In this document: positions 1-50,722 of the stretch, piece after piece
How the letters are laid out: the number at the start of each line of letters is the position of its first letter
Position numbering within the stretch: the first letter of the stretch is position 1
IMG/VR virus record: IMGVR_UViG_3300030333_002333
Location: 1 to 52,854 of that record
DNA: 52,854 nucleotides
Source: a virus
Reading direction: 5' to 3' (one strand)
Made by a program: the position numbers and the translations under genes
Notes under the pieces: generated by a model
Databases searched by the model: none
What the model saw: only the letters and a program-made list of their open reading frames with translations
What the model was told of the DNA's origin: nothing

Positions 1-269
1 TGAGGCAGTAAATGCCGTTACTCAGTTTATGAGTACTAGAACTGGGGACATGGTAGAAGGTGCTGTTAATCTTGGTGTAGCATCAGGTGTATCTGCTTGG
101 CAAGAGGGATTAAGTGTTGTAGCAGACTCAATGTTTGGAGGTGCTGTAGCAGGTGCAGGCTTCAGGGCTATTGGTAATATGATTAGAGTACCCGGTGCAA
201 AACCAGTTCTTCCCGGAACTCCTTTAAAAGAATTAACTAAAGCCCAGATTAATGAAAAAGCATTAAAGG
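1..269. repeat. Contig-terminal direct repeat, left copy
   Basis: Bases 1-269 match 52586-52854 (offset 52,585). Positions 5-267 are identical; mismatches fall at 4 (G versus A) and 268 (G versus A). Both lie in third codon positions and are synonymous (Glu GAG/GAA, Lys AAG/AAA). The repeat lies inside one open reading frame that runs through the join, so it is best read as an assembly overlap of a circular or circularly permuted molecule rather than a functional terminal repeat. True physical ends cannot be seen. Confidence 0.9.
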
Positions 270-3200
270 GTATAGCAGGTTCATTAATGATGGGTTTACC
301 TGCTACTCTAAGAGGTGCTACTACCGAAGAACAAATATATGATTATTTACTAGGTGCTTTCTTTGGACAGCAGGAAATGTATGTTAAGAATAGAAGGGCT
401 ATTGAACACCTAAGGAAGATGAAAACAGAGTACAGAGACCCTGAAACTGATACTCTTGGAACTCCACACCCTGAATTAGTTGAGGGTTGGAAGACATTGG
501 ATAGTGAGACTAAAGGTATTGTAAGAGGTATAGTAGAACAAGATATAAAACAAGGTGGTGTAATATCGCATTTACTTTATAGGGATGACTATAACAAGCT
601 CAAAGCAATGCAGGATGCACAAGGCAAGGCTAAGGAAATATACGAAGGTGAGGTAGTAGAAAGAGTAAGGAGACCAGAAGAAGAATTAACAGAGAGTAGG
701 GATACTACTGGTAATACTGGTGATATGAATCCAGAACTAAGAGAACCTGAAGCCTATGAAGCATTATTTACAAAGACACGACATTATGTTGAAAGATTCC
801 TAGAGAATGAATGGAAGGATGCTCCAGATAAACAATTAGCACTAGAGGATGCTTGGAGAACTGTTAATAGAAAATGGAATGATGTTGTAGAGCGTAATAT
901 TAGACTTCAAGATACAGAAAACCCTGCTCAAGAAATGATTAAATGGGTTAATAAAAAGTATAAAAAGAATATAGTTGAAGGTAATGAAGAATGGAACTAT
1001 TGGACTAAATGGGGACAAGCTAGGAAGTATAATAAGCCAGTACAGGTTGCATCTATTGTACTTGATATTAAGGGAGCCCAAAGAAGACGCAATAGGATGG
1101 ACCCTGAATTAAGGGGACAGACAATACTAGAGCCTGATAATAGATTACATATATTAAATGAAAATCTTGAACCAGATGCTATGAATATGGCTCAAAATAG
1201 TAAGCAGTTAAGAGAACCTGCTAAGATATTAGAAGGTGTCTATGCTAATGAGATACATAAGCATACAGGATTAAGACACGACCCTAGAGACCCTGTTTAT
1301 TTAGTTGTTGACCATGTAGTTAGTAATGTTAAAACAGGTGGTAAGTACTTTAAAGAAGAAAGCTTCTCTGATTTGAGAAGAAATCTAACTCAAGATGCTA
1401 AAGATTTATTTCAACTACAAGCTAAGCAAGGAATGTTTCAAGGTCTTAGTGGTAAAGAACTTAAGACAGTAAAAGAAAAATTTATAGCAAGAGAAACAGA
1501 AGCAAAATATAATAATATAATGCAGAGTACACTAAGGAGTCTTAACGAAAGAGGTTATCTATACTTAGGTGGTAGAGGGGATGCTGAAAGACTGTACTTT
1601 GTTAAGCAACATCCGGGCATTAAAACAAAGATGTTCTTTGAGGGCTCTACTGTACCAAGAAGAGAAAAGAATTTAAGAAATCAAATATTAGACACCCTAC
1701 AAAAAGAAGTTGATAGACAGTTTAGAGAGGGAACTATTAGAGAAAAAGAAGATGTAATGGCTCTTTATGCAAGAGAAAAAAAGCTTTGGCAAGACATTAT
1801 GGCAAGTGGTAGTAGAAATTATGACCAAAGAAGTAGAGGTTACGATAAGCAACAGGCTGGTAAGTTATTCGATAGGACATTTTTAAATAATGTAATGTAT
1901 GATTTAAGTATGAACGGGCTTCCTTTTACTAAGAAAGCAATAAGACAACTTGGTATGCCGGGTATGATTAGAGATGCTAAAGCATTTAATAAGCGTTCAC
2001 AAATATGGTTTACTAATGGAACTCCATCTGACCCAGCATTTATAAAGAGAGTTGCCTCTGAAGAAGCTAGTATCCCAATTCCAGATGAGGGTTATAGATT
2101 TATATTACATGAAGATACAAAAGGTAAAACCTTTTTAAGTAGTCAGGCTAAAGAATATGTCCACACAATGGATGGTGAGATTATTATGTTACCTGAATTA
2201 GTTAAAGCACATAACTTAGAACAAGGATTACCATTAGAAGGTAATGTTAATAAATCTTTTATAGTATCACCGAGTGCTGAACATGGTGCTATGCTTGGTA
2301 AATATCAATTTAAGGGTGCTCCTTCAGAATTAGCCGAAGCAATGAGGGCTAATAATATACATATGATAGTCCCAGAAAGTGCTGCTAAACAATGGGGTTC
2401 AAGACCTATGTATGAAAGATGGGAATGGAGCAATGGTAATATAAAATTATATAAAGCTGATGGTTCACTAGAAAGAAGAGCCTCTAAAAATTGGGATGTT
2501 AATAATTTACCAATAGAAAGTATAAGAACTGTAACTTCAGAAATAACTGGAGATAAGTCTAAGAAAGATGCTAGACTACCAAAACAAATGCAATCTAATT
2601 TAACTCCATTTGGGTATAAACCTATAAAGCACAGAGTTATAGATGAGATATTTGAGAGAGCAAGTAGAAGGTCATTTGAAGGAGACCCTGAGATAAATTC
2701 ATTAGCTGAACAATTACAGGGTATGCCAAATGAAAAGATAGAAAGAAAGATACTTAAGAACATAGAAGATTTAGGTGTGCCACAGTTATTAAAACTAATC
2801 AATGACCCAACTAATGAGTCCTTTGCAGTTAAGGCATACAATAAGATACTTAGAGTTAATGAAAGCATTGTTAATGACTTAATAGCAGAAGGTGAGATTT
2901 CTGGAGAACAAGGTCATGCTATAAAATTAGATGCAATGGAATGGTCCTCTGTCTTTGATAGAATGACATCTTTAAAACCCGGTTCTCTAACTCCACTACT
3001 ACATAAGGTAGGAGATAACTATAGACAATCCGTATTAAGAAATTATATCTTAGCACAAATAGTTAAACCAAAGATGACTAATAGTATTAGTGCAAGAATG
3101 GTTGGTTATGATTCTTACTTACAAAAGAAACTACCTGAGCTTCAGAAGAATGATAATATATTTTATTTAGATGATAGTTATGCTGATAAACAAATGAGAT

Positions 3201-6200
3201 TAGCAGATGGTAGTACCCCAACTCTTGGTGAGATGTGGGAAACATATCAAAGAGGTAATTTATCCAAGGGTGTTAAGAGAAGATATGAACATTTGTTCAC
3301 TGCTATTGCAGTAAGGACTCCTATGGACTCACTCAGTGGGGCTCATAAGCTTAAATTTGCTGGTTTTACGGGCAGAAAAGGCTATGGTGTGGTGTTACAT
3401 CCAAGAACTATGGAAGCACTGGGAGGAGCCGATTTAGACGGTGATAAAGCATCTATATTTTTTGGTGATAAGAAGTGGGGATTTAAGAATAGTTGGAAAA
3501 ATGCATATCATAATCAAAGAAGTGAGTTTTATAGTAGCGATGGTTCCCAAGGTAAGGTCCCAACTGTAAAGATTATTAGTGGTGGTCAGACTGGTGCTGA
3601 TATTGCAGGTAATGAAGTTGCTGTAGCTAGAGGGATGGAGTCAGGTGGTACAGCACCTAAAGATTATGCTACAGACCGTGGTAAAAAACCAGAGTATAAA
3701 GATAAGTATGGCATGGTAGAAATAACTGACCAGCAGACCAAGGGGTATATTGGTAGGGAAAAGAAATGGGGACCTAGAACTGAACAAAACATTATGGACT
3801 CAGATGGTACTGTTATATTTGGTGTTACTAGTTCACCCGGGAGTAAGTTAACTAAAGACCTTGCTATAAAAAATGGTAAACCATATATAGAAAATCCAAC
3901 TCCAAGAGAATTAAATGAGTTTTTAATAGAAGAAGGTATAAAAGTTTTAAATGTAGCAGGTAATAGAGAGAGGAAAAACCCGGGTATAAATAAGAAGGTT
4001 AAAGAGATACTTAATGAAGCACTTGAAGAGAAGGCTCCCGACAGAGAAATAGAGATAGAACATAACAAACCTGAAGATATGCGTAAGCTTCTAGCTGAAG
4101 ATAATCCTGAGACTTTAAGTAGGATTAAAAGTTATTCTTTAAGGTTCTCTCCACTCATGAGATATCAAGCAAGTAAAGCAGCCTATGAGGGTAGGGCTAT
4201 GCTTGGTCCTGCTGTTGTAAATAGAGCGACCCTACTAGGTGCTTATAACCAAATAAGAACATACCTAGAGCATACAGGACAGCCAAAGTTAGTTAAGAAA
4301 ACTAGAGATGGTAAGGTTTTGTGGGAAGTTACTCCTAGAATAAGCAAGGCAGAGTTAAAGAAATTCAGAAAGATTGCTAGAGCATCTGTTGCATTAGCAT
4401 CTGACCCTATGGATGAGGCTGGTTTAAAGAACATAGATACTTTTTATAATAGTGTATTTGATTCTTTGTTTAAAATGAGAAAGGCAAGTTATGACAGAGT
4501 CACTGGTGAGTTTAAAGGATGGAGGGAGAATGACCAATTAAGTACATCAGAAAGAAAGAAGATTGGTGCTGGTACAATGTCTGCTATTAACTCAGCATCC
4601 TTTGGTAGGAATTTAGAGACAGGTAACAAACATAGTTTTTATGATTTTTACAACACAATGGAAAGAGCTTATAAAGAATTACCATATACAGAGGAGATTG
4701 GATTTGGCAATGCATTCCATACTAAGATTGCAGAATTAGTTAGAGGATTAGATTGGAATGATAGCATGGTCCACAGGATTGATTCAAATAGATTAGCTGG
4801 TTGGTATGAAAGAATAGCAGAGACATTTAGCAAGGCTGAGTATAAAGATATACAATCTCTATTAGGAAGAGATAAGCCTACAGGTTCATTAAGTATCACT
4901 ATGAACAGACCACTACAGTTGGTATTGGAAAATAAAATATTTGAAGTCTTTAGTAGGAACAGACATATATGGTCAGATGACCCAGAGTCACCTAGTTTTT
5001 CTAAGTTAGTTAATGAGAACGCTGACTTGTTTTATAATTTCTTTAGGAAACATAATCCTGATATAACTCTTATGAATCAAGTTGAAAAGTTAAAGGGCAT
5101 GACTATTGAAAAGGCAGCGAGAGAGTATGATAAGATAATAACAGAAGATATGAGAAAAGACCATCATGCTTATAATGATGTAGTCAAAAGAGATGCTGAT
5201 ACTGGGGAGTTAATAGCATTTGGAGCACACAGAAAAGCAAGGAAGAGGGGTGCTAAAAAACATTGGACATTAGATGGACATAGGTCTAATAGGATTTCAG
5301 AAAAAGATATGATTCAATTGTCTGGTGGAATCAAGATGATGGATACAAAGACTAGAGCTAAAATGGTAGATGAACTACTTAAGTTGTCTAGTGATGCTAT
5401 TAGTAATGACCTTGGAGACTGGGCAAGTGCAAGACTTATTAATGAAGTATGGGCAAGGGATTCTATAAGTGGTAAAAGATTTCAAGAACTAGCAAAACTA
5501 TCTGATAAGGTTCAAAGATTGAGGCAAAAGCTTGATAAAGAAAGGGATATGGTAGCATCCTTAGAAGATATTGAAATGTCTGATGGTCAGAGAAAACAAA
5601 TAGAAAAATTAAGTGAGTTAATTGCAGGTGAAAGAACCTCTGGAGAGATGGACCAAAGAAGAGTTGATAATTTTATCCGAAGAGAAAAAGATAATATGAC
5701 TCAAGCAGAACAAGACCTATTTGATTCTCTATTAATATCTAGTTGGAAAATTGGTGAGCCAGCAAGAGTAAGGAAGATGAATAATCTTATTGATGTTATA
5801 ATAAAACAAAGACCACCAAAGAAAGGTCCAGAGCGTACTAGGTGGTTCCAACAGGTTAAGAACCTTGAGGAATTTAGAGACCAGAAGGCTAGGGAATTAC
5901 ATAATACAAAATTTAATAAAGTGGGATTCGCATCTAAAGAAGTAAGTGACCATATCATTAAGAGACAGATGGATATTATGGAAGAAGCTTATAATTCTTT
6001 TAGATATGAGGATAGCTTACGGGATACAAGGGTTGCTGAGGCACAATTAAAAGAGCTTGAAAAAGAAAATGCCAAGCAACCTTTGTTTAATGAGCAAGGT
6101 GAAAGATTGCAAGGTATAGCAATAGAGCAAAGGCACTATAGTCGTAAGACTCAAAAGTGGATGGAGGATTATGTTCCTTTTGAAGACCTGCTTAAGTATG

Positions 6201-9200
6201 AAAAAATAAAGGCAGACCCTGAAGCAAGGAAGATATTAAATAGCCTAAAAGACCATTTAAATTATTATGGTCCAAAGACTGCAGAGGATTTACACCTTAT
6301 AGTCAGAGGTATGGTTAATAAAGATATCAATGTTATGACATTACAAGATTGGAAGATTGTTGATAATATATTTAAATCATATAGGAGAGGGACTTGGTTT
6401 CAAAATTTTAAAGATAGCATTAAGAAAGGAAAATTCCCTGACTTACAAGCTAGGAATTATAGAATGTTTCCAGAGGCTATAGATAGAAACATAACAAGGT
6501 ATGAAGCTAAGTGGGCTGATACAGAAACTATATATAGAGATAAGTATGGTAACTGGATTACTGGTAGAGCAAAAGAAATGCAGGGATGGATGGGTGAGAT
6601 ACAGAATGGTATTCACTTAAGTACAGAGATTGGAACTATGCAGACTCAAAGAGAAGAGAGAGCTTGGAATGATTCAGTAGAAAGATATCTCAATACAGAA
6701 CTAGGTGAAGACCTATGGTGGTATTCAGTTGCTAAGTTTGAAGCAGATTATGTACCAAAACAATTAAGAAAAAACCCTGTGTTTGATGAACTATCAGAAT
6801 CATTTGCTCAGACTTATATAAAAAGACATGAGAAATGGCATGAAAAATTAAACTGGGATGAGACTCAAAGTAGATTACTTACATTAACTGATGGTAAAAG
6901 ATTGACTGCTGGAGAGATAAGTAAAAAAATACAGGAACTAATTGCAGTAAAGAATGCAGAGAACCATCAACTCCTAAAAGGAGAAGAAGGTTTCATGGAA
7001 AAAGAGTTCCAACTATGGGGACCAATGAAGTGGAAGAAGGGTGGAAAAACTATAAGAGGACCACTCTATTATAAGATAATCAATAACAAGACAGGGATAG
7101 CAGAGATAACAGACATTCCAGTTGTAAGTAGAAAGAAAGTTATAGAGTACTTTACACAGAAGTTGAGACATGGAGAAGCTTTTCCAGAGAATCAACTTGG
7201 TATAGATGGGATAAGAAAATTAATGTTAAGTATGCAGGTGGGTCAGTTAAGAGCACAAGAAAGAAAGACTGAAAGAACAGGTAGAATTAACCATACTGAT
7301 TCGAGAAATCTATCTGCTAGGTTATTAAAGAAAGAGATTACTCCTACTGGTACACTTGGTGAGGTTAGATATGTTAATGGAAAGAAAGCAATTTATGGAT
7401 ACTATCCTCATGTAAGTAAAATGTTTGAGAGGGATGTTATTGTTGGTGACTTAGCTCAAAAGATTAAAGCAATTTGGCGTAGTAACTTACCTAAAGAAGA
7501 AAAAGAAATGAAGGCTGCTAAATTATATCTAAGAAGTAAGCAGTTATCTGGTGACTTTGCAGAGAGAGACCCTATGAATGATAGTTGGGAAGTTGTTAGT
7601 GATGCTATTATAAGAATGCAACAAGGTAAGGAAATTAAAAAAGAGATGGGATGGTTTGAAGGGCTATCAAGAATTAGTAATCAATTCTCAAGAGAAAGCC
7701 ATGTTGATGGATGGAACATGGGACCAGAAGCCTATCTTGAATACACTAATAGTATTTATAAATCATTCTATCGTTCAATAGGACAGATAATGGCTCGTGA
7801 ATCTATCATGAGTTTTGCAGAGAAACATCCTGATATGCCACAGAATTTAAAAACAAGTTGGATGAATTTCTTTAAGCTATATGCACAGCAATCATTAGGG
7901 TTCCCTGCTGAGATACCTGATGCTATGTATGATAATAAAGATATGAAAATAAAGGGTACATTGTATGGTGCGTTAGCAGATAATAGAGTAGCCAGAAGAC
8001 TAGATAAGATGGCTGATATACTTAAGTTAAAAGATAGGAAGGGTAATCTACCAAAAGAATTAAAAGCATTGAATAAGGTAGATGCACAAACAGTAATTAA
8101 CTTGAGTAACATGGAAGCAAAGTATGCACTTGCTACATTGTTAGCCCATCCTAAATCAAGCGTTGGTAATTATCTAGGTGGTACTCAAATGACTATCATT
8201 AATTCGGGTTGGAATAATTTTAGAAAAGCAAGAAGTCTTGATTATCTTAGGAAGACTATTGACCCAGAGTTTAAAAGCTGGGAAGATGTTAATAGGTGGG
8301 TAAGAGAGCTTGGCATCATTGAAGAGTTTATACTTAGGGAGGTTGGTGCCAACCCACAATTAACTGGTGTTAAATGGAATAGTTTTTTAAAGGATTTCAA
8401 ACAAGCATTAAATAAGGACCCTAATCTACCTGATGTTACCCTTAGGGATATGATGAAGAGACATGGTTTAACTAGGACTATGACAGATATAGCAGGTAAG
8501 TTTATGTCTATACCTGAAAGAACTCTTCGTAGGGATTCATTTATAGCTCATTATATACAAGCAAGAGATAAACTTGGTGGTAGAATACTACCTAAGGACC
8601 ATCCTTACTTAATAGAGATGGGTAAGAGAGGTGTTAAGGCGACCCAGTTCTTATACTCTGTACCATTTAGACCAATGTTTGCAGGAACTGCAATGGGTAA
8701 GGTACTAACTAGGTTTCAGTTATGGGCTTGGAACAGTGTAAGATTTAGAAATCAAGTAATAAGAGAAGCAAGTGAAAGAGGAATAAATGAGCACACTCCT
8801 GAGTTTCAAAGGTTTAAAAGACTTGCTATATCAGATGCATTCTCATTAGCATTAGGTTCTATGTTTATGTATTCATTATTCGGTTCACAGATGCCACAGC
8901 CTTATGCTTGGTTCCAAGATTTATCTGATTGGATGTTTGGTGATGAGAAGGACAGGGACAGGGCTTTCTTTGGTGCTTATCCTTCACAGGTAGCACCATT
9001 ACAGTTAATAACACCACCTAGTGCTAGATTAACAGGACCAATACTTAACGGTCTTATTAATGGAGACTGGGAGAAAATGTCTAACTATTATATCTGGACA
9101 ATGTTCCCATTTGGTAGGTTAGCAAGAGACCTCTTTGGTCCGGGTGGATTAACAGAGAATCCATACTACGGATTAGATAAGATGACAGGTCTACCAGTAG

Positions 9201-9325
9201 TAGCATCAAAAAGATTATCTACTAAGAGAAAGAAAGAAGAAGAGAAAGGTACTGAGTTCTGGACTCCACCGGGATTAAAGGTATCTAAGTATTTTACAAC
9301 AGGTGAAGAGGAGGATGAAGCCTAA
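2..9325 (+). CDS. Giant RNA polymerase-like virion protein (DLDGD), residues 165-3271; 5' part is at 52095-52854
   Basis: Joining this segment to the ATG at 52095 gives one uninterrupted 3,271-aa protein. Around residue 888 a DG followed by a Lys-containing stretch and a PESAAK motif near 957 resembles the first double-psi barrel of two-barrel RNA polymerases. AVRTP near 1268 leads to GGADLDGDKASIFF, with DLDGD at 1308-1312. This is the metal-binding DxDGD signature of QDE-1/RDR, YonO and crAss-phage virion polymerases, including the GGxDLDGD context of cellular RDRs. Residues about 1353-1508 form a SLOG/YpsA-like domain (GGQTGAD at 1357, RTEQNIMDSDGT, KVLNVAGNRE). A bridge-like segment RAMLGPAVVN follows near 1562. 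The remaining roughly 1,700 residues are mostly helical and charged, with hydrophobic stretches near the C-terminus. Neighbours are ejection-type proteins, so delivery with the virion is inferred. Polymerase activity is inferred from motifs only. The stop overlaps the next start (TAATG). Confidence 0.75.
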   Translation, partial: EAVNAVTQFMSTRTGDMVEGAVNLGVASGVSAWQEGLSVVADSMFGGAVAGAGFRAIGNMIRVPGAKPVLPGTPLKELTKAQINEKALKGIAGSLMMGLPATLRGATTEEQIYDYLLGAFFGQQEMYVKNRRAIEHLRKMKTEYRDPETDTLGTPHPELVEGWKTLDSETKGIVRGIVEQDIKQGGVISHLLYRDDYNKLKAMQDAQGKAKEIYEGEVVERVRRPEEELTESRDTTGNTGDMNPELREPEAYEALFTKTRHYVERFLENEWKDAPDKQLALEDAWRTVNRKWNDVVERNIRLQDTENPAQEMIKWVNKKYKKNIVEGNEEWNYWTKWGQARKYNKPVQVASIVLDIKGAQRRRNRMDPELRGQTILEPDNRLHILNENLEPDAMNMAQNSKQLREPAKILEGVYANEIHKHTGLRHDPRDPVYLVVDHVVSNVKTGGKYFKEESFSDLRRNLTQDAKDLFQLQAKQGMFQGLSGKELKTVKEKFIARETEAKYNNIMQSTLRSLNERGYLYLGGRGDAERLYFVKQHPGIKTKMFFEGSTVPRREKNLRNQILDTLQKEVDRQFREGTIREKEDVMALYAREKKLWQDIMASGSRNYDQRSRGYDKQQAGKLFDRTFLNNVMYDLSMNGLPFTKKAIRQLGMPGMIRDAKAFNKRSQIWFTNGTPSDPAFIKRVASEEASIPIPDEGYRFILHEDTKGKTFLSSQAKEYVHTMDGEIIMLPELVKAHNLEQGLPLEGNVNKSFIVSPSAEHGAMLGKYQFKGAPSELAEAMRANNIHMIVPESAAKQWGSRPMYERWEWSNGNIKLYKADGSLERRASKNWDVNNLPIESIRTVTSEITGDKSKKDARLPKQMQSNLTPFGYKPIKHRVIDEIFERASRRSFEGDPEINSLAEQLQGMPNEKIERKILKNIEDLGVPQLLKLINDPTNESFAVKAYNKILRVNESIVNDLIAEGEISGEQGHAIKLDAMEWSSVFDRMTSLKPGSLTPLLHKVGDNYRQSVLRNYILAQIVKPKMTNSISARMVGYDSYLQKKLPELQKNDNIFYLDDSYADKQMRLADGSTPTLGEMWETYQRGNLSKGVKRRYEHLFTAIAVRTPMDSLSGAHKLKFAGFTGRKGYGVVLHPRTMEALGGADLDGDKASIFFGDKKWGFKNSWKNAYHNQRSEFYSSDGSQGKVPTVKIISGGQTGADIAGNEVAVARGMESGGTAPKDYATDRGKKPEYKDKYGMVEITDQQTKGYIGREKKWGPRTEQNIMDSDGTVIFGVTSSPGSKLTKDLAIKNGKPYIENPTPRELNEFLIEEGIKVLNVAGNRERKNPGINKKVKEILNEALEEKAPDREIEIEHNKPEDMRKLLAEDNPETLSRIKSYSLRFSPLMRYQASKAAYEGRAMLGPAVVNRATLLGAYNQIRTYLEHTGQPKLVKKTRDGKVLWEVTPRISKAELKKFRKIARASVALASDPMDEAGLKNIDTFYNSVFDSLFKMRKASYDRVTGEFKGWRENDQLSTSERKKIGAGTMSAINSASFGRNLETGNKHSFYDFYNTMERAYKELPYTEEIGFGNAFHTKIAELVRGLDWNDSMVHRIDSNRLAGWYERIAETFSKAEYKDIQSLLGRDKPTGSLSITMNRPLQLVLENKIFEVFSRNRHIWSDDPESPSFSKLVNENADLFYNFFRKHNPDITLMNQVEKLKGMTIEKAAREYDKIITEDMRKDHHAYNDVVKRDADTGELIAFGAHRKARKRGAKKHWTLDGHRSNRISEKDMIQLSGGIKMMDTKTRAKMVDELLKLSSDAISNDLGDWASARLINEVWARDSISGKRFQELAKLSDKVQRLRQKLDKERDMVASLEDIEMSDGQRKQIEKLSELIAGERTSGEMDQRRVDNFIRREKDNMTQAEQDLFDSLLISSWKIGEPARVRKMNNLIDVIIKQRPPKKGPERTRWFQQVKNLEEFRDQKARELHNTKFNKVGFASKEVSDHIIKRQMDIMEEAYNSFRYEDSLRDTRVAEAQLKELEKENAKQPLFNEQGERLQGIAIEQRHYSRKTQKWMEDYVPFEDLLKYEKIKADPEARKILNSLKDHLNYYGPKTAEDLHLIVRGMVNKDINVMTLQDWKIVDNIFKSYRRGTWFQNFKDSIKKGKFPDLQARNYRMFPEAIDRNITRYEAKWADTETIYRDKYGNWITGRAKEMQGWMGEIQNGIHLSTEIGTMQTQREERAWNDSVERYLNTELGEDLWWYSVAKFEADYVPKQLRKNPVFDELSESFAQTYIKRHEKWHEKLNWDETQSRLLTLTDGKRLTAGEISKKIQELIAVKNAENHQLLKGEEGFMEKEFQLWGPMKWKKGGKTIRGPLYYKIINNKTGIAEITDIPVVSRKKVIEYFTQKLRHGEAFPENQLGIDGIRKLMLSMQVGQLRAQERKTERTGRINHTDSRNLSARLLKKEITPTGTLGEVRYVNGKKAIYGYYPHVSKMFERDVIVGDLAQKIKAIWRSNLPKEEKEMKAAKLYLRSKQLSGDFAERDPMNDSWEVVSDAIIRMQQGKEIKKEMGWFEGLSRISNQFSRESHVDGWNMGPEAYLEYTNSIYKSFYRSIGQIMARESIMSFAEKHPDMPQNLKTSWMNFFKLYAQQSLGFPAEIPDAMYDNKDMKIKGTLYGALADNRVARRLDKMADILKLKDRKGNLPKELKALNKVDAQTVINLSNMEAKYALATLLAHPKSSVGNYLGGTQMTIINSGWNNFRKARSLDYLRKTIDPEFKSWEDVNRWVRELGIIEEFILREVGANPQLTGVKWNSFLKDFKQALNKDPNLPDVTLRDMMKRHGLTRTMTDIAGKFMSIPERTLRRDSFIAHYIQARDKLGGRILPKDHPYLIEMGKRGVKATQFLYSVPFRPMFAGTAMGKVLTRFQLWAWNSVRFRNQVIREASERGINEHTPEFQRFKRLAISDAFSLALGSMFMYSLFGSQMPQPYAWFQDLSDWMFGDEKDRDRAFFGAYPSQVAPLQLITPPSARLTGPILNGLINGDWEKMSNYYIWTMFPFGRLARDLFGPGGLTENPYYGLDKMTGLPVVASKRLSTKRKKEEEKGTEFWTPPGLKVSKYFTTGEEEDEA

Positions 9326-11343
9326 TGTATTTTGGAACACATGGATTACTAGGTGCTATGATAGGAGTACCAGTTGGTGCAGGAATTAACGCAGCAGTTA
9401 ATGCTTTTGGCAGTGGTGAAAGTGAAGAGTATAGTAATGCTGAAATAGGTGCTGCATTGGGTACTGGTATGTTAGCAGGTACTATGGCTAAACCAGCAAT
9501 AGCATGGGCTGGTAGAAACATGGCTAATTTCTCTGAGGGTTATTATAATCTTGAACCTTTTGATGACATGACTAGATTTGAATCAAAGGTTCTTGGTGGT
9601 AACCAAAAAATGGTTAGTATAAAAAGAAACTTAGGCAGTGCTATTCGTGGTAAGCAACAATTAAGAAACAATGTAGACTTAACTCTTCTTGATAATAAAG
9701 AATTAAAAAAGATACAAAACAAAACTCAATTTGAAAAACTACAGGTTGAGTTAAATGCGAATGATGTAAGGAACCCTAGAACGGGTAAGCCTATTGATGC
9801 AGTTACTCAGTATCATAGATATAAAAATAACAACTTTCCTAATAGTCCTAACACTACTGCTGAAGAAGCTTTGTGGCATTTCAAACAAGAGAGAGCAAAG
9901 AAAATAAACTTTAATTTAGATAAGACAACAGCATCTCTTGAAAGACAGATAGCAAGTTGGTCACAAGGTGGAAACAATTATGAAAGAATGTTAAAACATA
10001 TGAATCCACAAACTCCTGATGAAATAAGAGCATTTAATAGAAGGATGATGTTAAACAAAGCGAAAGCTTCAGTATTATATAGTAATGCTATGAGGGAATT
10101 TGAAAAGGCAGGTGAGTATGGTAGAAAATGGAGACATGAGATAGCAAAGAATGAGGTCCATGCTATGTGGGCTAATAAACCTTGGAGTAAAAGAAGATTA
10201 GCTCAGGCTGGGTATGCTTGGGAAGGTGCTTATAGATGGGGAGATTTAAAAAAGTTCTTTGATACTCCGGGTCTTAACCAATGGGAAAGAAGTGTTAATG
10301 ATGTTGGTAAAAAGGTTGCAAGTGCCCTTAAAGTGCCCGGGCTTGCCCCAACATTAATGAATGATAATACTGTAATAAATTTCATGAGGAATACTAATGT
10401 ACATGATAATGTTATCAAGCGACAGCCATCCAGAGTATTCCAAGGAATAGGTAGAGACATAGCTCATCTAGCAGGAAATCATAATTACAAACTATCAGAG
10501 GTTAGGTCTCATATTCGTAACAATCTAAAGTACAATCCTCATAAGTATAACTTTACAACTAGGGACTTAAAAGAATGGTCTGAAAAAACTAATGATGAGG
10601 TATTCAAAAGACAGTACAAAGAATGGAAAGGAATGAAGAAGTCTCAAAAACTCAGTGATAAGGGGCTAAAGCTTTATAATAGATTATCTTATAAATATGG
10701 TAAAGCAGTTGCTGATGACATGCTTAAACAAGCACAAAAACAAGGTGCTTTTACTAAAGCATTTGGTGCTGGTAGAGGTAACTTTACTATACAAGGTATG
10801 GGTAGGGTCACAAAGAGTTATCTTGAAGGTGGTATTAATATGACCACAGAGTTTAGAGCATTTGCAGAACCTAGAAGTGCAGTACCAAAGGTTGCTATGA
10901 GGACAGTAACAAGTGACCTTAGTGACTTATTATATAGTGTTGAATCAGGTGTACAAAGGAATGTTCCATTGATAGCAGAAGAGCATTATCAAACTTATAA
11001 TGGAAAGACAGGTAAATTATTATCAGGTAGACCAGCTATGACAAATAGCAATCCTTTTAAGGGTAGATATGAGGCTGGTCTTGATGACTTAAAACAAAAC
11101 AGATTAATAAGAGGTGATGTTAAGAGAACTTTATTAAAGGATGGGTATAATAAGATGTTGAGTTTAAAGAACTTACGCTTTCTTCAACGAGCAGTTACTG
11201 AAAACCCAACCCGTTTTTTAAAGTACGCAGCTAACAGGTCCTTAGGTATTGTATCCAATCCAGTTGTTGCATCAGGTTTAATAGCATGGAGTGTGTTTGG
11301 TGGCATGAAGGGTGAGCAAGAACTTTCCGATACTTTCCAGTAG
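9325..11343 (+). CDS. Putative internal virion/ejection protein, 672 aa
   Basis: It starts at the ATG overlapping the stop of the giant polymerase-like gene (TAATG), so the two are probably translationally coupled. The N-terminal 70 residues are Gly/Ala-rich and hydrophobic (GLLGAMIGVPVGAGIN, then IGAALGTGMLAGTMA), like the membrane-active starts of ejection proteins. The middle is highly basic and helical (many Lys, Arg, Asn). Near the C-terminus there is a further hydrophobic run (NPVVASGLIAWSVFGGM). No enzyme motif is visible. It is the last gene of the rightward unit. The role as a virion protein entering the cell with the DNA is inferred from position and composition. Confidence 0.6.
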   Translation: MYFGTHGLLGAMIGVPVGAGINAAVNAFGSGESEEYSNAEIGAALGTGMLAGTMAKPAIAWAGRNMANFSEGYYNLEPFDDMTRFESKVLGGNQKMVSIKRNLGSAIRGKQQLRNNVDLTLLDNKELKKIQNKTQFEKLQVELNANDVRNPRTGKPIDAVTQYHRYKNNNFPNSPNTTAEEALWHFKQERAKKINFNLDKTTASLERQIASWSQGGNNYERMLKHMNPQTPDEIRAFNRRMMLNKAKASVLYSNAMREFEKAGEYGRKWRHEIAKNEVHAMWANKPWSKRRLAQAGYAWEGAYRWGDLKKFFDTPGLNQWERSVNDVGKKVASALKVPGLAPTLMNDNTVINFMRNTNVHDNVIKRQPSRVFQGIGRDIAHLAGNHNYKLSEVRSHIRNNLKYNPHKYNFTTRDLKEWSEKTNDEVFKRQYKEWKGMKKSQKLSDKGLKLYNRLSYKYGKAVADDMLKQAQKQGAFTKAFGAGRGNFTIQGMGRVTKSYLEGGINMTTEFRAFAEPRSAVPKVAMRTVTSDLSDLLYSVESGVQRNVPLIAEEHYQTYNGKTGKLLSGRPAMTNSNPFKGRYEAGLDDLKQNRLIRGDVKRTLLKDGYNKMLSLKNLRFLQRAVTENPTRFLKYAANRSLGIVSNPVVASGLIAWSVFGGMKGEQELSDTFQ

Positions 11344-28258: not shown

Positions 28259-28916
28259 TGATAACTATGTATCATTAGTATTAAAGAGAAAAAAGTATGA
28301 ATCTGATAGAAGTCAAGCCACATTGTATATCCGAACCCCTTATGGCTACATTATGCACAATCCGAAATACAAGACTCAGAAATTTTATGCTGAGGGCAGG
28401 TCTACCCCTTGGACCCTCTCTGGGAAACCAGCCCTTGAAGTACAGTCTCGTTCCGAAAGATGGAAAAACCTTGCCCTCGCATATGTTTCAACAAACTTTG
28501 ATGCAGACCTTGCTATTGATATGGTCATGGGTCAAACAACTCCCCAGCAAAGAAGACGCTGGAAACGAAGAATAAGAACAGAGGAGTTTAAGAAAGTGGT
28601 AAGAGAAGAATTAGATGTATTATTAAAAGACTCTGGTAAGGACCGTGAATATGTCATGGACTTGTTGGAGGAAGCTATACAGATGGCACGAGACAAAAAA
28701 GATGTTACAAATATGATGAGAGTTGTTGAAAAGCTTATGTCATTACATGGTATGGATGATAAGGATACAGTAAAGACAACTCGACAGATAGAGGGTGTAT
28801 CAACTAAAAAACTAATAGCCGATGTTCTGGAGGAGGAACAAAAGTTAAAACTCACAGAAACAACGGAAGGCAATGGAGAACTACGAGGAAAAGTATCAGA
28901 AACTTCAGGTTCTTAA
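28107..28916 (+). CDS. Putative terminase small subunit, 269 aa
   Basis: It lies directly upstream of the terminase large subunit with a 44-nt overlap. The N-terminal 100 residues look like a compact beta-rich domain (GRKSYPVYTLKEAEEKGI; CKHWKDAQEGEYCV). The C-terminal part is helical and basic-acidic (RRRWKRRIRTEEFKKVVREE; coil to residue 250). Small subunits recognise phage DNA and hand it to the large subunit. The assignment rests mainly on position and size, since I see no certain helix-turn-helix. The true start may lie further downstream. Confidence 0.6.
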   Translation: MAYVTTVFEISINHKTGRKSYPVYTLKEAEEKGIQCKHWKDAQEGEYCVSDDNYVSLVLKRKKYESDRSQATLYIRTPYGYIMHNPKYKTQKFYAEGRSTPWTLSGKPALEVQSRSERWKNLALAYVSTNFDADLAIDMVMGQTTPQQRRRWKRRIRTEEFKKVVREELDVLLKDSGKDREYVMDLLEEAIQMARDKKDVTNMMRVVEKLMSLHGMDDKDTVKTTRQIEGVSTKKLIADVLEEEQKLKLTETTEGNGELRGKVSETSGS

Positions 28917-30372
28917 AAAGTTTAGGGAAAATATTGGTCTTTTTGGGAAAGTGTGTTTTCCTACTGCTCTCAATAGGGATATACCACCATTCCATACTGA
29001 GCTTTATTCCCATCTTCGCAACGAGGAAAAACGGAGGCTACTTATCGCAGCTCCCCGTGGCACTGCTAAGTCTACTACTGTGTCTCTCATTTACCCCTTA
29101 TGGAAGGTCGCATTTAAACCCGAAGATGAAGACTTATTCATTGTCATTATATCAGAAAGCCAAAGCCAGTCTGTCAACTTTCTATCGAGGATAAAATACC
29201 ATCTTTCACACTCAAAGACATTCTCAGAAAACTTCGGAGACATGGGTCCCTCTACTGCTCGTAGGTGGACTAATAATGATATTATTCTTGCAAATGGTTC
29301 TCGTATCATTGCTGTGGGGACTGGTCAACGGGTTAGAGGATTCATTGAGGGTGATACAAGACCTAACCTTATTATTATTGACGACTTTGAATCTGAGTTA
29401 AATGCATTCACTCCAGAAGCTAGGGCTAAAAATCGTAAGTGGATAACTGAGGCTGTGATACCATCATTGTCAGATGATGGTAGAATAGCCATGATTGGGA
29501 CTGTAATCTCAGAAGATTGCTTCTTATGTTGGGCTAAGGAATCACCTGCTTGGGATGTATTATGGTATTCTATATGGGATGATGATGAGAATAGTTTATG
29601 GGAAGCAAGGTTTCCTAAAGAAAGAATACTCCAAATTAAAGATGAGTTTGCTAGTGTAGGTAATCTTAATGGATTTTATCAGGAGTATATGAATATAGCA
29701 CAATCTCCTGATGATGCTCCTTTTAAACCAGATTATATCCAAATACATCACTATGATTTTGAAATTAGGGATGGACAGTCTCTACTTGTTAAAAAATTGC
29801 CCGATGATAAAGAAGAGTTAAAACCAGTAGCAGTATACTCTGGAGTGGACCCAGCATCCTCATTATCTATGAAAGCTGACTTTTTTGTTATTGCAACGCT
29901 AGGTATAGATAATGATGGGAATGTTTATGTTATTAATATAGTAAGAACTAAGATAGACCCTAGTGACCAGCCAGATGCTATTATAAGACAATTTAAAAAA
30001 TACAAACCAAAGAGGATGAAGATTGAAACAGTTGCATATCAGGAAGCATTGAGAAGTGCTGTTAGGAAACAAATGCAAGAAGAAGGATTATATATCCCCG
30101 GACTAGAGAAAGGCGTTAAACCCAGAAATAGAAAATCAGAGCGATTACTTTCACTTGTACCACTTCTTGCTAAAAAACAGTTCTATTTCAGACCTCAAGA
30201 TATAGAAGCACAGTCTGAGTTCTTATCTTACCCCCGTGGTAAACATGATGATGTCATGGATGCAGTATGGACCGCATTAGAAGGTTCAAGACCTAGTAGA
30301 AGAAAGCATTTTACACCTGTCGATGAGTCAGGTAATTTTGGCAGAAAAGTACTTGACTGGATGACAATGTAA
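28873..30372 (+). CDS. terL: Terminase large subunit, 499 aa
   Basis: Walker A APRGTAKST (60-68), Walker B LIIIDDFES (D170, D171, E173) and a coupling-type GT strand (AMIGTVIS) form the packaging ATPase. The C-terminal RNase H-like nuclease shows GVDPASS (D326) and GKHDDVMDAVW (D459, D460). The two-domain order and length match the Terminase_6-type large subunits. The enzyme docks on the portal, pumps DNA into the prohead and cuts it. The gene sits between the small subunit and the portal, the standard order. Confidence 0.95.
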   Translation: MENYEEKYQKLQVLKKFRENIGLFGKVCFPTALNRDIPPFHTELYSHLRNEEKRRLLIAAPRGTAKSTTVSLIYPLWKVAFKPEDEDLFIVIISESQSQSVNFLSRIKYHLSHSKTFSENFGDMGPSTARRWTNNDIILANGSRIIAVGTGQRVRGFIEGDTRPNLIIIDDFESELNAFTPEARAKNRKWITEAVIPSLSDDGRIAMIGTVISEDCFLCWAKESPAWDVLWYSIWDDDENSLWEARFPKERILQIKDEFASVGNLNGFYQEYMNIAQSPDDAPFKPDYIQIHHYDFEIRDGQSLLVKKLPDDKEELKPVAVYSGVDPASSLSMKADFFVIATLGIDNDGNVYVINIVRTKIDPSDQPDAIIRQFKKYKPKRMKIETVAYQEALRSAVRKQMQEEGLYIPGLEKGVKPRNRKSERLLSLVPLLAKKQFYFRPQDIEAQSEFLSYPRGKHDDVMDAVWTALEGSRPSRRKHFTPVDESGNFGRKVLDWMTM

Positions 30373-30397
30373 TAACTAATTTCAAAATGGATAACTT

Positions 30398-32551
30398 ATG
30401 GCTGAGAAAAGTACATCTAAGAAAAGTTTAGTAGAGGAAACCCAAGACCTCTTTACCGATTATTCCAATAATAGAGAAAAATGGGCTATTCAAGCCCAAG
30501 AAGATAGGGAATTTCGACTAGGACAGCAATGGACAAAAGAACAGGCTCGTACATTAAAAGAGCGTGGTCAAGCTCCAATTGTAGTAAATAGACTTCATCC
30601 AGCAGTAGAAATGGCAAAAGCATTACTAACTGCTAACAGACCCCAGTTTAGAGTATCACCCAGAGAAGATAGCGATAATCAAGTAGCTCAATTAATTAAT
30701 GGATTACTTGCTTATATGTGGGATATATCAGATGGTGTATCAACTCTTCGTGGAGTAGTAGATGATTACTATGTTTGTGGTATGGGCGTAATGATGGTTT
30801 ATCAAGACCCATTAAGGGATAATGGTAAGGGTGAAGTTGTTATTAGAGATGTGGACCCATTAGATGTTTATATAGACCCTAATTCTAGGGATAGATTCGC
30901 AGATGACGCTGAGAACATCATTATATCAAGGATGTTTACAAAGAAACAGGCTGAGAAACTCTATCCTATGTATGATTCGAAAATTAAAAATGCTACATCC
31001 GATAGGAGTTCTGATAGACCTTCTACTGGAAGAGAGCATGATGGAAAGGCAATATTCCCTGAAGATATTGAAACAATGACTGATTCTGCACTTGGTAAGT
31101 CAGATGAGTATGTAAGAGGTTATGAAAGATACTATAAGGAAATGGTATCCAGATATAGAATACATGAGTCTTTTACAGGTAGAGAAGCAGTAATGGATGA
31201 TGAGGAATTTCAAGCCTATATCCAGCAACCAGCTTGGTATATAGAGGGAAGACCTGTTATAAGACAGGATTTAGCTCAGCAAACTATTCAACAATTAATG
31301 CAAGCTCATGCACAAATGATAGAACAGGCTCAACAGGGTGGTGGCTCAACTGAAGGATTACCACCAGAACCTGAGATAGAACAGGTTACTGTAGAGCAAA
31401 TGATAAAAGATGAATTAATAAGGGTTGTAGAAATAAATGCTTGTAGAGTATGTCAAGTAGTAGTTATGGGTGACCAACTTCTTTATAAGAGGGTTTTACC
31501 TACCGATAAATATCCAGTAGTACCATTTATGAATATTCACACTAGGACACCTTATCCTATGTCTGATATTAGAATGTGTAAGGATATGCAAGAGTATATA
31601 AATAAGACTCGTTCTTTAATTATAGCTCATGCTACCACAAGCACAAATGTAAAGATTTTAGTTCCAGCAGGTTCAGTTGATATGAGAGAGTTTGAGTCTA
31701 AATGGTCTCAACCGGGAGTTGCAATCGAAGTAGATTTCGACCAAGGAGCACCTCAGCCAGTTCAGCCCCTTCCACTACCAAATGAACTATATCAGAATGA
31801 ACAGACTGCGAAATCAGATATTGACCACCAACTTGGTCTTTATGAGTTAATGATGGGGAATTCTCAAGCCGCCCCTCATACTTATAAAGCCACAGTATCT
31901 ATTGATGACTTTGGTCAGAGAAAGATAAAATCAAAGTTGATGGACATAGAAGCTGGTCTGAGTCGGGTGTGTGCTGTTGCAATCCCACTTATGCAACAAT
32001 TGTACCAAGAAGAAAAAGTTATCCGTCTGGTGCAACCCAACAATACGACCAGCGAATATTTAATTAACAAGAATTATTATGACGATTTTACTGATTCCAT
32101 ACAAAAGTTTAATGACATTGGAATAGGTAGTTATGATGCAGTAATTGTTACTGGGTCTACATTACCTACAAATCGTTATGCTCAACTCGAACTCTATATG
32201 GATGCTTATCGTAATGGATTGATAGACAAAGAAGAAGTTCTTAAGAAGACTGAAATCTTCGATGTCGAGGGCGTTCTTATGAGAACTGACACAATTGAAC
32301 AATTACAGTCTCAATTACAAGGTGCTCAAGAACAAATCAAGAAGTTACAAGGTGATATGCAATCTAGGGATAGAGAGAATGTTAATCTTAAACAAAGAGT
32401 TGAGGTTGAAAAATTTAAGGCAGACCTCGATAAGGTTTCTAACCGTGCACAAGCAGCAGGAACCATATATGAAAAACGCCTTGATGACGCTACTAGTGAA
32501 ATAGCATCTGAAATCAAAAGAGCGAAGAAAGATGCTGGCAATAAAAAATAG
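30398..32551 (+). CDS. P22-like portal protein, 717 aa
   Basis: DREFRLGQQWTKEQARTLKERGQAPIVVNRLHPAVEMA near the N-terminus (positions about 36-75) followed by RPQFRVSPRE, then DVDPLDVYIDPNSRD, is the hallmark of the P22-type portal family. A clip/crown region with coiled coil ends the protein (about residues 620-717), and its C-terminal helix is longer than in many portals. Portals form the dodecameric DNA channel. The position after the terminase fits. Confidence 0.92.
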   Translation: MAEKSTSKKSLVEETQDLFTDYSNNREKWAIQAQEDREFRLGQQWTKEQARTLKERGQAPIVVNRLHPAVEMAKALLTANRPQFRVSPREDSDNQVAQLINGLLAYMWDISDGVSTLRGVVDDYYVCGMGVMMVYQDPLRDNGKGEVVIRDVDPLDVYIDPNSRDRFADDAENIIISRMFTKKQAEKLYPMYDSKIKNATSDRSSDRPSTGREHDGKAIFPEDIETMTDSALGKSDEYVRGYERYYKEMVSRYRIHESFTGREAVMDDEEFQAYIQQPAWYIEGRPVIRQDLAQQTIQQLMQAHAQMIEQAQQGGGSTEGLPPEPEIEQVTVEQMIKDELIRVVEINACRVCQVVVMGDQLLYKRVLPTDKYPVVPFMNIHTRTPYPMSDIRMCKDMQEYINKTRSLIIAHATTSTNVKILVPAGSVDMREFESKWSQPGVAIEVDFDQGAPQPVQPLPLPNELYQNEQTAKSDIDHQLGLYELMMGNSQAAPHTYKATVSIDDFGQRKIKSKLMDIEAGLSRVCAVAIPLMQQLYQEEKVIRLVQPNNTTSEYLINKNYYDDFTDSIQKFNDIGIGSYDAVIVTGSTLPTNRYAQLELYMDAYRNGLIDKEEVLKKTEIFDVEGVLMRTDTIEQLQSQLQGAQEQIKKLQGDMQSRDRENVNLKQRVEVEKFKADLDKVSNRAQAAGTIYEKRLDDATSEIASEIKRAKKDAGNKK

Positions 32552-32593
32552 GATACCCCAGCACTAGATGGGCTCCGTATTGAGGAAATTGAT

Positions 32594-33520
32594 ATGTCTC
32601 AAGAAAATCAACAAGGTCAAGTAACGGACTTAGAAGATTCTCTGTTTACAGAGGAAGTAATTGACGAAGTGTTTAACCCCGTTGGTGGGAACGAACCAGA
32701 ACCTACGCCTAGTGCACCTGCACCAGTAGCAGAGGGTTCAGCCGTTCCTCAGGGAGAGGTTAGACTTGCTGACCCAACTAACAACGATGAAGTACGGTAT
32801 CAGTATTGGCAATCTGAAGCAGATAAAGCCAAAAACGAAAATGAGCAATTAAAGCAAACTGTGGCAATTCTACAGGATACTATTAAGGGCTCACCTACTG
32901 AAGTTCAGTCTCAACCAGAAATTGAGGACACTGAACCCGAACCTTTTCGTGACTCACCAGAGAAACCAACAAGACCCGTAAACTTTAACAGAGCTGAAGC
33001 CTATGACGACCCTAATTCTGCTTCTGCACAATATTTGGACCAAATGGACCAGTATCGTGATAGTATGGATGAATGGAATCGTGATAGAGTTGAATATGAA
33101 GCTGACTTACTAAGACAGGAAAGAGAATCCCTACAGGAAGCTCAACGAAGACAACAGGAAGCATATGAAGCTGAACAGCGTAATGCAGAACAGGTTAATC
33201 AGATTTCTCAACAATTAAAAAGCGAATACGGTGCCAATGATGCCGAAATAGCTGATTTTGTTGAAAAAATGAGTTCCCCTGAATCATTAAATGTTAATAA
33301 CTTATGGCGATTGTATCAAATGGACAAAGGACAGGTACCTGCTCAACAACCAGCACAGCCCTCTCCCCAATTCAATCAAGTTCAGAGAGCACAGTCAGTG
33401 CCTCAGCCTATGGGTGTTCAATCAAGTGCTAATATGGCACAGAACACCAAGAGTGCAGAGGATATAATCATGGATGATTTAATTACTGACTATAAAAGTA
33501 AAAATCCTTGGAATAGCTAA
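32594..33520 (+). CDS. Putative scaffolding protein, 308 aa
   Basis: It lies between portal and capsid genes. The composition is acidic and low-complexity (EPEPTPSAPAPVAEG), with long Gln/Glu-rich coiled coils from about 165 to 210 (LLRQERESLQEAQRRQQEAY). The short C-terminus DYKSKNPWNS resembles the terminal capsid-binding tails of scaffolds. No protease domain is visible. Function is inferred from position and composition. Confidence 0.75.
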   Translation: MSQENQQGQVTDLEDSLFTEEVIDEVFNPVGGNEPEPTPSAPAPVAEGSAVPQGEVRLADPTNNDEVRYQYWQSEADKAKNENEQLKQTVAILQDTIKGSPTEVQSQPEIEDTEPEPFRDSPEKPTRPVNFNRAEAYDDPNSASAQYLDQMDQYRDSMDEWNRDRVEYEADLLRQERESLQEAQRRQQEAYEAEQRNAEQVNQISQQLKSEYGANDAEIADFVEKMSSPESLNVNNLWRLYQMDKGQVPAQQPAQPSPQFNQVQRAQSVPQPMGVQSSANMAQNTKSAEDIIMDDLITDYKSKNPWNS

Positions 33521-33555
33521 GGGTAACTTGAACAAACAGACTTAAGGAGTCTAAA

Positions 33556-34971
33556 ATGGCTAATCAATATAGCATAAACGCTGGAGGCTCAATGCAATCT
33601 TCTTCTATCGATGATAGTAGACGGATGTATAACTTTGGCGAAAGAGTTGCTGAATTGGCTCCAGCTCAGTCTCCATTCTTTGTCTATCTCTCAAAAGTTG
33701 CTAAGAAATCCACGGACGACCCTGTATTCAAATTTTTGGAACAGCGTCATCAGTGGCAGAGAAGGAACTTTGAAGTAAAAACAACTAACGAAGTAGCGGC
33801 TGCTTATTCAAGTGGTTCGTTTGCTTATGGCTCAGGCGATAAGGTTGTCGTTGATTGTCTTTATGACAAGTATGGAAGAGCTGTGTCAACAGCAGTTCAA
33901 CCACTGTTCTTATTAGAAGACCAGTTGGTACAGATTGGATGTAAATATGCTTCTAACGGTAGTAGTTATGCTGCTGCAGAACATATTGCGACATTCAAGA
34001 TTGCAGCCGCACCGGATTTATCCACAGACGCTGCTGCAGCAGGACTCCAGCTTACTTTTGTTTCACTTTCTCTTCCGGGCACAGGTGCAGTTACACCTGC
34101 AGATGACTCGAAGATTAAGGTTGAAGCTGACCAAAAAGGTCAGGTAATCGGAAGTGCCTTCGCAGAAGGTGGAACCGACCCTGAAGGCTGGAAAGACGAA
34201 ATGTACGACCGTGAGGGTTATGTGCAGATTTTTAAAACAGCAATTCCTATGTTCTCAGGTACTGCAATGGCTACACGCTATCGTGGTAAGGCAGATGAGT
34301 ACAAGAGAGTTTGGCAGGAAAAGTTGATGGAACACAAGATGGATATCGAGCATGCAATGCTTTTTGGTATCGGTTCTGATGATTCCACAGCAACTGGTCC
34401 TGTAAGACGCTCTTGGGGTATCTTACCTTACACTGAGAGACATGGAAAGGTTAAATCTTTCACATACTCTGGTTCAGACTACGATGCTTTCTTAACAGCA
34501 ATGGAAGATGTTTTCGCCCCAGAATCTGGGAATAGTGGAAACAAACTTGTACTTGCTTCAAGGAAAGTTATCACTTGGCTGAACAAACTCGGTGCTGATT
34601 CATTCTTGGGTAACACAGTTGCACTAGGTCATACAGCAACTACCTCTGGTGGTTCTAATGGCTATGCACTTGATATTCAGAATGTCAAAGGTGCGTTTGG
34701 TCACAATGTATCTACTGTTAATACTATTTATGGTAATCTTCACTTTGTTGCAGAGCCTCTATTTAGAGGAATGTACGAGGATTACGCAGTTATGGTTGAT
34801 ATGAAGAATGTCAACTATCGCCCTCTCGCAGGAAATGGTATCAATCGTGATACTCACATTATTACCAATGTTCAGAATAACAATGTTGATGGAAGAAAAG
34901 ACATCATCTTGACCGAAGCCGGTCTTGAGATTCAACTTCCAGAAACTCACTGTATTCTGAAGTGGTCATAA
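33556..34971 (+). CDS. Major capsid protein, 471 aa
   Basis: AAGGAG lies 7 nt before the ATG. The protein follows the scaffold gene and has the size, Gly/Ala/Asp/Val-rich composition and order of helices and strands of HK97-fold capsids. The N-terminal stretch YNFGERVAELAPAQSPFFVYLSKVAKK resembles capsids of marine podoviruses. MSHH-like His motifs or protease sites are not seen. A strong hairpin follows the stop, as often found after highly expressed capsid genes. Confidence 0.85.
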   Translation: MANQYSINAGGSMQSSSIDDSRRMYNFGERVAELAPAQSPFFVYLSKVAKKSTDDPVFKFLEQRHQWQRRNFEVKTTNEVAAAYSSGSFAYGSGDKVVVDCLYDKYGRAVSTAVQPLFLLEDQLVQIGCKYASNGSSYAAAEHIATFKIAAAPDLSTDAAAAGLQLTFVSLSLPGTGAVTPADDSKIKVEADQKGQVIGSAFAEGGTDPEGWKDEMYDREGYVQIFKTAIPMFSGTAMATRYRGKADEYKRVWQEKLMEHKMDIEHAMLFGIGSDDSTATGPVRRSWGILPYTERHGKVKSFTYSGSDYDAFLTAMEDVFAPESGNSGNKLVLASRKVITWLNKLGADSFLGNTVALGHTATTSGGSNGYALDIQNVKGAFGHNVSTVNTIYGNLHFVAEPLFRGMYEDYAVMVDMKNVNYRPLAGNGINRDTHIITNVQNNNVDGRKDIILTEAGLEIQLPETHCILKWS

Positions 34972-50134: not shown

Positions 50135-50722
50135 ATGCTTAAAAAACTCTGGAGAGGACTCACAGGTCAATTAGACCAAGGTGCAATTGAAAGACAATTA
50201 AATGCTGGTATGAGCCAGTATACGAATCCAATGACGCTTAATGCTCAAACCTTAGCAGGTAAGGGTAATGAGTTAATGGATTTCTCTGGTGCTACTAATG
50301 TTGCATCAAGAGAATTACTACAAGACGCTGCTGCTGATGCTACTGCTACAGGTGGTCTACAGGCAGCTCAAATGGCTGCTCAACAAGGTATGGGTGGCTC
50401 AGGATTATTACAACAAGCACAAGCCAATAACGCTTTTACTAATATGATGAAGGCTAATAGATTTGGACTGCAAGACACAATGAAAAATTTTAGACTAGGT
50501 GGTGATTATTTAAATCAATCATCAAATATATTTCAGAACCTAGGAAGTATGCAAGGAGATATTAACGAAACATTAGCTATGACTAATATGCATAATCAGA
50601 ATGCTCAGAATAAATTCATCCAAGGGGCAGCAGGTACATTGATTGGTGCCTTACCCGGAGGTGGTGGTGGAGTTGAAGGTGTATTATCTAGTCTATTAGC
50701 TGCTAAAACAGGTACACCATAG
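50135..50722 (+). CDS. Internal virion/ejection protein, gp14-like, 195 aa
   Basis: GGLQAAQMAAQQGMGGSGLL with an Ala/Gln/Met/Gly-rich core and the C-terminal hydrophobic GAAGTLIGALPGGGGG resembles small podovirus internal virion (ejection) proteins such as T7 gp14-like members. Such proteins form the channel that carries DNA and partner proteins across the cell envelope. It is the first of the ejection-type genes and is followed by the 450-aa and 3,271-aa ones. Confidence 0.72.
   Translation: MLKKLWRGLTGQLDQGAIERQLNAGMSQYTNPMTLNAQTLAGKGNELMDFSGATNVASRELLQDAAADATATGGLQAAQMAAQQGMGGSGLLQQAQANNAFTNMMKANRFGLQDTMKNFRLGGDYLNQSSNIFQNLGSMQGDINETLAMTNMHNQNAQNKFIQGAAGTLIGALPGGGGGVEGVLSSLLAAKTGTP

Follow-up and report, generated by a model that had tools for sequence, protein, structure and literature searches.

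A giant protein with a predicted two-barrel RNA polymerase core in an uncultured short-tail-type phage

Does a giant gene that runs across the ends of an uncultured viral genome encode an RNA polymerase that enters the host together with the phage DNA? The question was raised by a first-pass annotation of IMG/VR record IMGVR_UViG_3300030333_002333, whose 52,854 bases we analyzed in full (the window) and whose source is an uncultured, short-tail-type phage. The annotation had noticed two-barrel RNA polymerase signatures inside a protein of 3,271 residues and proposed that this protein is ejected into the cell. We now think it very likely that the giant protein is virion cargo that carries, in its middle (residues ~685–1810), a single-chain, two-barrel, DNA-dependent RNA polymerase ejected for early transcription. 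The two-barrel plan is also that of cellular RNA polymerases.

The giant protein and its polymerase core

The gene spans the ends of the closed genome. Positions 52586–52854 repeat positions 1–269 with two mismatches, and this terminal repeat of 269 nucleotides implies that the genome closes at ~52.6 kb. An open reading frame starting at 52095 joins another that is open from base 2 to 9325, giving a protein of 164 + 3,107 = 3,271 amino acids. Uninterrupted homologues are present in the related records L002, L003, L008, and L011 (relatives are labeled in this way throughout); the closest of them, L002, has the gene whole (3,037 amino acids), which supports the reality of the joined gene.

The motifs cited in the first-pass annotation were all present and correct to within one residue: in full-length numbering, TMDGE at 886, PESAAK at 955 (inside the lysine-bearing stretch), AVRTP at 1267, DLDGD at 1308–1312, and RAMLGPAVVN at 1562. 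Since shuffling the giant protein yielded DxDGD alone in 4.5% of shuffles, and R-x-P followed 30–50 residues later by DxDGD in 0.3%, we regard the motifs by themselves as suggestive. Taken with its invariance in 72 aligned relatives and with the predicted fold, both described below, DLDGD appears to lie far beyond chance.

A first search, with the protein stretch around DLDGD as query, recovered L002 and L003. Later searches with alignments of relatives extended the family to 126 and then to at least 179 viral contigs of IMG/VR, confirmed by tblastn. The 72 representative cores are 30%–75% identical to L002 across ~940 residues, and all of them retain the three aspartates of DLDGD, the R and P of the upstream R-x-P, and a set of D, G, K, F, G, K, K, and G in the region of the first barrel (DPBB-B). 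The invariant lysines of that region include K222, K238, and K267 (L002 core numbering). The second barrel (DPBB-A) keeps a length of 50–52 residues and DPBB-B one of 82–100, while loops and linkers vary freely. The same three-part layout recurs in 84 out of 84 distinct full-length proteins, with an N-terminal part (~residues 1–340), the central core, and a C-terminal part of ~1,300 residues, variation being found mainly in the linkers. All 14 family records tested contain the core exactly once, along with a phrog_38 terminase and a P22-like portal (phrog_156).

Beyond this family, tblastn queries against 50,697 phage records gave no polymerase relative, the sole matches (nine records) being to a SLOG domain inserted in the window protein; pattern scans for barrel A across 84,980 cellular genomes were likewise negative and so gave no pointer to a host. 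When the L002 core was compared with a library of predicted viral structures, its two top matches (27% identity, TM 0.62–0.72) carried no name, from which it follows that relatives have been deposited and are unannotated in the tables examined. Relatives of the giant protein appear never to have been named. Further nameless entries (BFVD A0A516M3R5, A0A516L9L2, A0A516LUR1, and others) match the L002 core in polymerase fold at 10%–12% identity and may represent further two-barrel polymerases of phages, as yet undescribed.

An AlphaFold model of the L002 core, free of inserts and based on the 72-sequence alignment, was confident (pLDDT 89.5, pTM 0.87). Among solved structures, Foldseek ranked QDE-1 best (E 8e-7 and 3e-6, probability 1.0), followed by chains of RNA polymerase I and of bacterial beta-prime, and the 50 best rows of VIA-align were two-barrel RNA polymerases or RDRs without exception. 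These included P74-26 gp62 (Z 13.2, 428 residues, 4.8 Å), QDE-1 (Z 12.9, 528 residues), RDR2 (Z 12.5), and crAss-phage gp66 (Z 11.0, 669 residues, 4.7 Å; the longest overlap), where Z gaps of one or two units give no ranking among structural relatives. P23-45 gp96 was not among the structure matches listed, and is not thereby excluded. The model has DLDGD flanked by a short helix on one side and a second-barrel strand on the other, and its helices 686–701 and 703–727 correspond to the long-helix region that begins with RAMLGPAVVN. The spacing from R-x-P to DxDxD is 36 residues here, compared with 36 in gp66, 35 in gp64 and gp96, and 40 in YonO.

The first-pass claim of a two-barrel RNA polymerase inside a giant protein is therefore supported by the predicted fold of the L002 core and by an active site invariant in 72 cores. 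Neither a structure lacking double-psi barrels nor an unrelated fold over DLDGD, either of which would have spoken against the claim, was obtained. Because of fold and active site together, the core would belong to the two-barrel (double-psi) RNA polymerase superfamily: the overall fold is predicted to be that of the superfamily, D-x-D-x-D falls in a putative beta-prime-like barrel with R-x-P upstream, and the other barrel seems to supply the invariant basic residues, putative counterparts of the catalytic lysines. The two barrels would face each other, the first contributing the invariant lysines and the second the DLDGD aspartates that would hold the catalytic Mg ions.

Several results pull the other way. 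The confident model is of L002, whose core is ~56% identical to that of the window protein, and a model of the window core itself from eight sequences was poor (pLDDT 46.6); it was discarded, the 72-sequence alignment having solved the problem. The global TM-score to QDE-1 was low (0.31), as expected with domain movement. Profile alignments with hhalign put the catalytic stretches in register with 60 YonO sequences (E ~0.06) and the catalytic motifs in register with 71 gp66-type sequences (E 0.08), in both cases without significance; nothing significant came from hhalign against single sequences or from profile searches of PDB chain sequences. A promoter motif was also sought in the genome, and none was found. 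One candidate promoter repeat, TTSAAMGGATTGTATAA, was dropped, as it has two exact copies only, one inside a short open reading frame and the other overlapping a called frame.

Packaging, ejection, and early transcription

If the giant protein works as we propose, it would most likely travel inside the capsid and be threaded into the host ahead of the DNA or together with it, aided by the flanking ejection-type proteins. After entry, the polymerase would refold and transcribe the first phage genes from a DNA template, as is the case for gp66 of crAss-like phages and gp96 of P23-45. We infer ejection from the ejection-type neighbors of the gene in the late block, the size of the protein, its three-part layout, and the precedents. 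The first-pass annotation had placed the gene among ejection-type proteins, and it does stand in a same-strand late block with such genes on either side. The gene order (a 195-residue protein, a 450-residue protein, the giant protein, and a 672-residue protein) recurs in L006 and L011 and, judged by size and strand, is largely shared by more distant relatives. The accompanying claim that the genome has no other RNA polymerase gene held for the two classes tested: T7-type polymerases (PF00940) were not detected in the genome and were detected in the phage T7 positive control, and beta-prime (PF00623) was not detected in the genome and was detected in 14 out of 14 control genomes.

Precedents for ejected two-barrel polymerases come from crAss-like phages and from P23-45 (PMC10770324), and a cargo model has been described for crassviruses (PMC10172136). 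One close parallel is gp66 of phi14:2 (PDB 6VR4). This large protein of a short-tailed phage also contains a two-barrel polymerase on a single chain, its gene lies among those for virion and ejection proteins, and it has R-x-P...DFDID at identical spacing (DFDID there versus DLDGD here). It differs in length (2,180 amino acids) and in its insignificant profile match, and phi14:2 has a genome of 100 kb as opposed to ~53 kb here. The head genes do not indicate membership in Crassvirales: terminase, portal, and head protein belong to phrog_38, 156, and 1328 in the window and to 6681, 6547, and 11589 in phi14:2. A crassvirus affiliation was dropped, there being no meaningful BLAST similarity between phi14:2 and the late proteins of the window, with a shared phrog_221 family as the exception. 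P23-45 gp96 also places a two-barrel polymerase within a giant virion protein (5,002 amino acids; PMC10770324), but its polymerase, which has no clamp, sits at the N-terminal end of the tape measure of a long-tailed phage, whereas here the polymerase is central and occurs with a P22-like portal. The layout itself is that of N4 gp50, an ejected polymerase of ~3,500 amino acids with an N-terminal region, a central T7-type polymerase of ~1,100 amino acids, and a C-terminal region of ~1,400 (PMC5512222, PMC12633501). The window protein shares this design of a central polymerase with large flanks and realizes it with an unrelated enzyme.

The alternative that survives best is an active two-barrel polymerase that stays out of the virion and is made mid or late in infection like YonO or gp64, its flanks serving regulation or localization. 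We consider it unlikely. Non-virion two-barrel enzymes do exist: YonO of Bacillus phage SPbeta and gp64 of P23-45 are examples (PMC5467207, PMC10770324), as is P74-26 gp62, which has the highest Z to the L002 core. YonO resembles the core in being a single chain, in its R-x-P...DNDGDKA, and in a DPBB-B-like KSF...G-L...SQFK that falls in register in the weak profile alignment. But YonO and gp64 stand alone at 600–840 residues (YonO has 839, transcribes late genes, and has no virion-type fusion; PMC5467207), whereas the core here is not a free enzyme of ~100 kDa: it is embedded in a protein of ~3,000 residues, and its 84 relatives are also giant. The C-terminal part is conserved in these full-length members, and the gene has ejection-type neighbors in the late block. 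Of the two other polymerase classes searched for, neither was detected as a candidate for transcribing the early genes, a task that the host enzyme could nevertheless perform.

Considerably less probable is that the barrels are real and used otherwise, for primer or RNA synthesis in replication or for RNA-templated synthesis as in QDE-1 and the RDRs. These RNA interference polymerases, QDE-1 and plant RDR2, are among the closest solved folds (Z 12.5–12.9 across 450–550 residues), and the profiled proteins of the phage included no recognized DNA polymerase. They are, however, eukaryotic RNA-silencing enzymes, and a Pfam-A scan of the giant protein with E up to 1 listed no RdRP match. The phage relatives YonO, gp66, gp96, and gp64 are DNA-dependent transcriptases, and the primase-helicase of the phage already covers priming. 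A degenerate domain that no longer catalyzes and has a structural role within a tape-measure or ejection protein would suit a giant protein, but is highly improbable: 72 diverse cores all keep the aspartates, R-x-P, and the DPBB-B lysines amid freely varying loops and linkers.

Domains inserted in the polymerase loops

An insertion directly behind DPBB-A, the catalytic barrel, gives the window protein a cpYpsA (SLOG) domain, which the first-pass annotation had missed and which is new here. Its match to PF12694 scores 88.5 bits against a curated cut-off of 26.2. The domain recurs in L003 (by Pfam) and at the same place in L007 and L027 (by motif), and was not seen in L002, L008–L011, or most other members. 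Its closest free-standing versions found are SLOG proteins of the Maribacter phages Colly and Molly (48%–49% identity), suggesting that the insert may be a mobile domain. Other members have inserts after DPBB-A or in other polymerase loops, and the barrels are never interrupted: a DUF4326 domain in L059 (E 6e-7; marginal in L236 and L003), a GNAT-like domain in the L031 group, and a probable, weakly supported second SLOG-like domain in L219 and L240. Readings of ASCH-like (L033, L085), zincin-like HExxH (L184, L248), and MazG-like inserts had been made by visual inspection; they found no confirmation in Pfam and were set aside.

SLOG and DUF4326 have been placed in viral NAD/ADP-ribose conflict systems, and virion-embedded multi-domain effectors have been described (PMC9503650, PMC7824862, PMC5512222). 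Our literature search found no paper on SLOG- or DUF4326-type domains within a polymerase. Delivered by the giant protein, the cpYpsA insert probably has an accessory role in handling a nucleotide or NAD derivative; a role of the inserts as counter-defence cargo or in ligand-controlled transcription is speculative. We propose tentatively, and regard as somewhat doubtful, that these phages form an unnamed, widespread lineage in which the N4 design is built from the two-barrel fold and the ejected polymerase also delivers counter-defence domains (SLOG, DUF4326, and others) in loops near its active site. A single molecule would then both begin transcription and disarm nucleotide- or NAD-based defence, or it would sense such a nucleotide to gate transcription.

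Genome context and significance

The features of the giant gene and its neighbors are collected in Table 1.

Table 1. Positions of the giant gene, its parts, and neighboring late genes in the window
Feature	Position	Strand	Remarks
Giant gene, first part	52095..52854	+	ATG at 52095; codons 1–164 up to 52586, then end repeat
Giant gene, remainder	2..9325	+	residues 165–3271; open from the first bases of the window, 3,107 aa
Polymerase core (predicted)	1562..4933	+	full-length residues ~685–1810; family-wide conservation end to end; modeled on L002
First barrel (DPBB-B, beta-like), signature YVHTMDG...NKSFIV...LGKYQFK...PESAAKQWGSR	2156..2404	+	72-core alignment; strands in L002 model
Second barrel (DPBB-A, beta-prime-like), core R-x-P-MDS-SGA...HPRTMEALGGADLDGDKASIFF	3314..3481	+	50–52 residues in 72/72 cores
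Catalytic DLDGD, predicted metal-binding aspartates	3431..3445	+	invariant in 72 cores
cpYpsA (SLOG) domain inserted after DPBB-A	3572..4021	+	PF12694, E = 4.7e-25; absent from L002 and most relatives
RAMLGPAVVN, start of long-helix region after insert, bridge-helix candidate	4193..4222	+	G-R and R nearly invariant
ASDPMDEAGL, third invariant core motif (D-P-x-D)	4397..4426	+	72-core alignment
Conserved C-terminal part, ~1,300 residues	5250..9290 (approximate boundaries)	+	matched by ~90%–100% of 84 distinct full-length proteins
Terminase large subunit (phrog_38), P22-like portal (phrog_156 / PF16510), scaffold-like protein, major head protein (phrog_1328)	28873..34971	+	start of same-strand late block
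195-aa Ala/Gln/Gly-rich protein, upstream	50135..50722	+	ejection-protein-like by composition; same-place homologues in L006, L011
450-aa protein directly upstream of giant gene	50733..52085	+	
672-aa protein directly downstream, Gly/Ala-rich ends	9325..11343	+	overlaps giant-gene stop

A search with the portal of the window returned distantly related phages only (KPP25, PBC5, and cave phages). Elsewhere in the late block, a collagen-like protein of Gly-x-y repeats (40913–41779, + strand) is followed two genes downstream by a 2OG-Fe(II) oxygenase (phrog_61; 42983–43561, +). The phrog_221 metallophosphoesterase (44937–45728, +) lies shortly upstream of the tail and ejection genes, and the phrog_221 gene of phi14:2 (gp75) has a similar place, upstream of the tail and polymerase genes of that phage. 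On the other strand, a primase-DnaB helicase fusion (14390–16736, −) adjoins a Mu Gam-like end-protection protein. Three overlapping genes in the early region (18215–21915, −) encode a ThiF/E1-like protein (PF00899), a JAB peptidase-like protein (PF14464), and a protein of 712 amino acids with no Pfam or PHROG match, a putative arrangement resembling a ubiquitin-like conjugation/removal cassette.

Ejected single-chain two-barrel polymerases were found in the literature for just two phage groups, the crAss-like and the P23-45-like phages. The family described here, with genomes of ~50–55 kb and no counterpart detected in cultured phages, would be a third, apparently unrelated by sequence: a widespread variant of the virion-type two-barrel polymerases, with an N4-like design and an unexpected uptake of nucleotide-related domains. 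It would realize the giant-protein solution of N4 with a different enzyme, and the accessory domains in its loops suggest that early transcription may be coupled to NAD- or nucleotide-based defence. The core offers a compact, testable enzyme, and the family is relevant to the relationship between single-chain two-barrel polymerases and the cellular enzymes.

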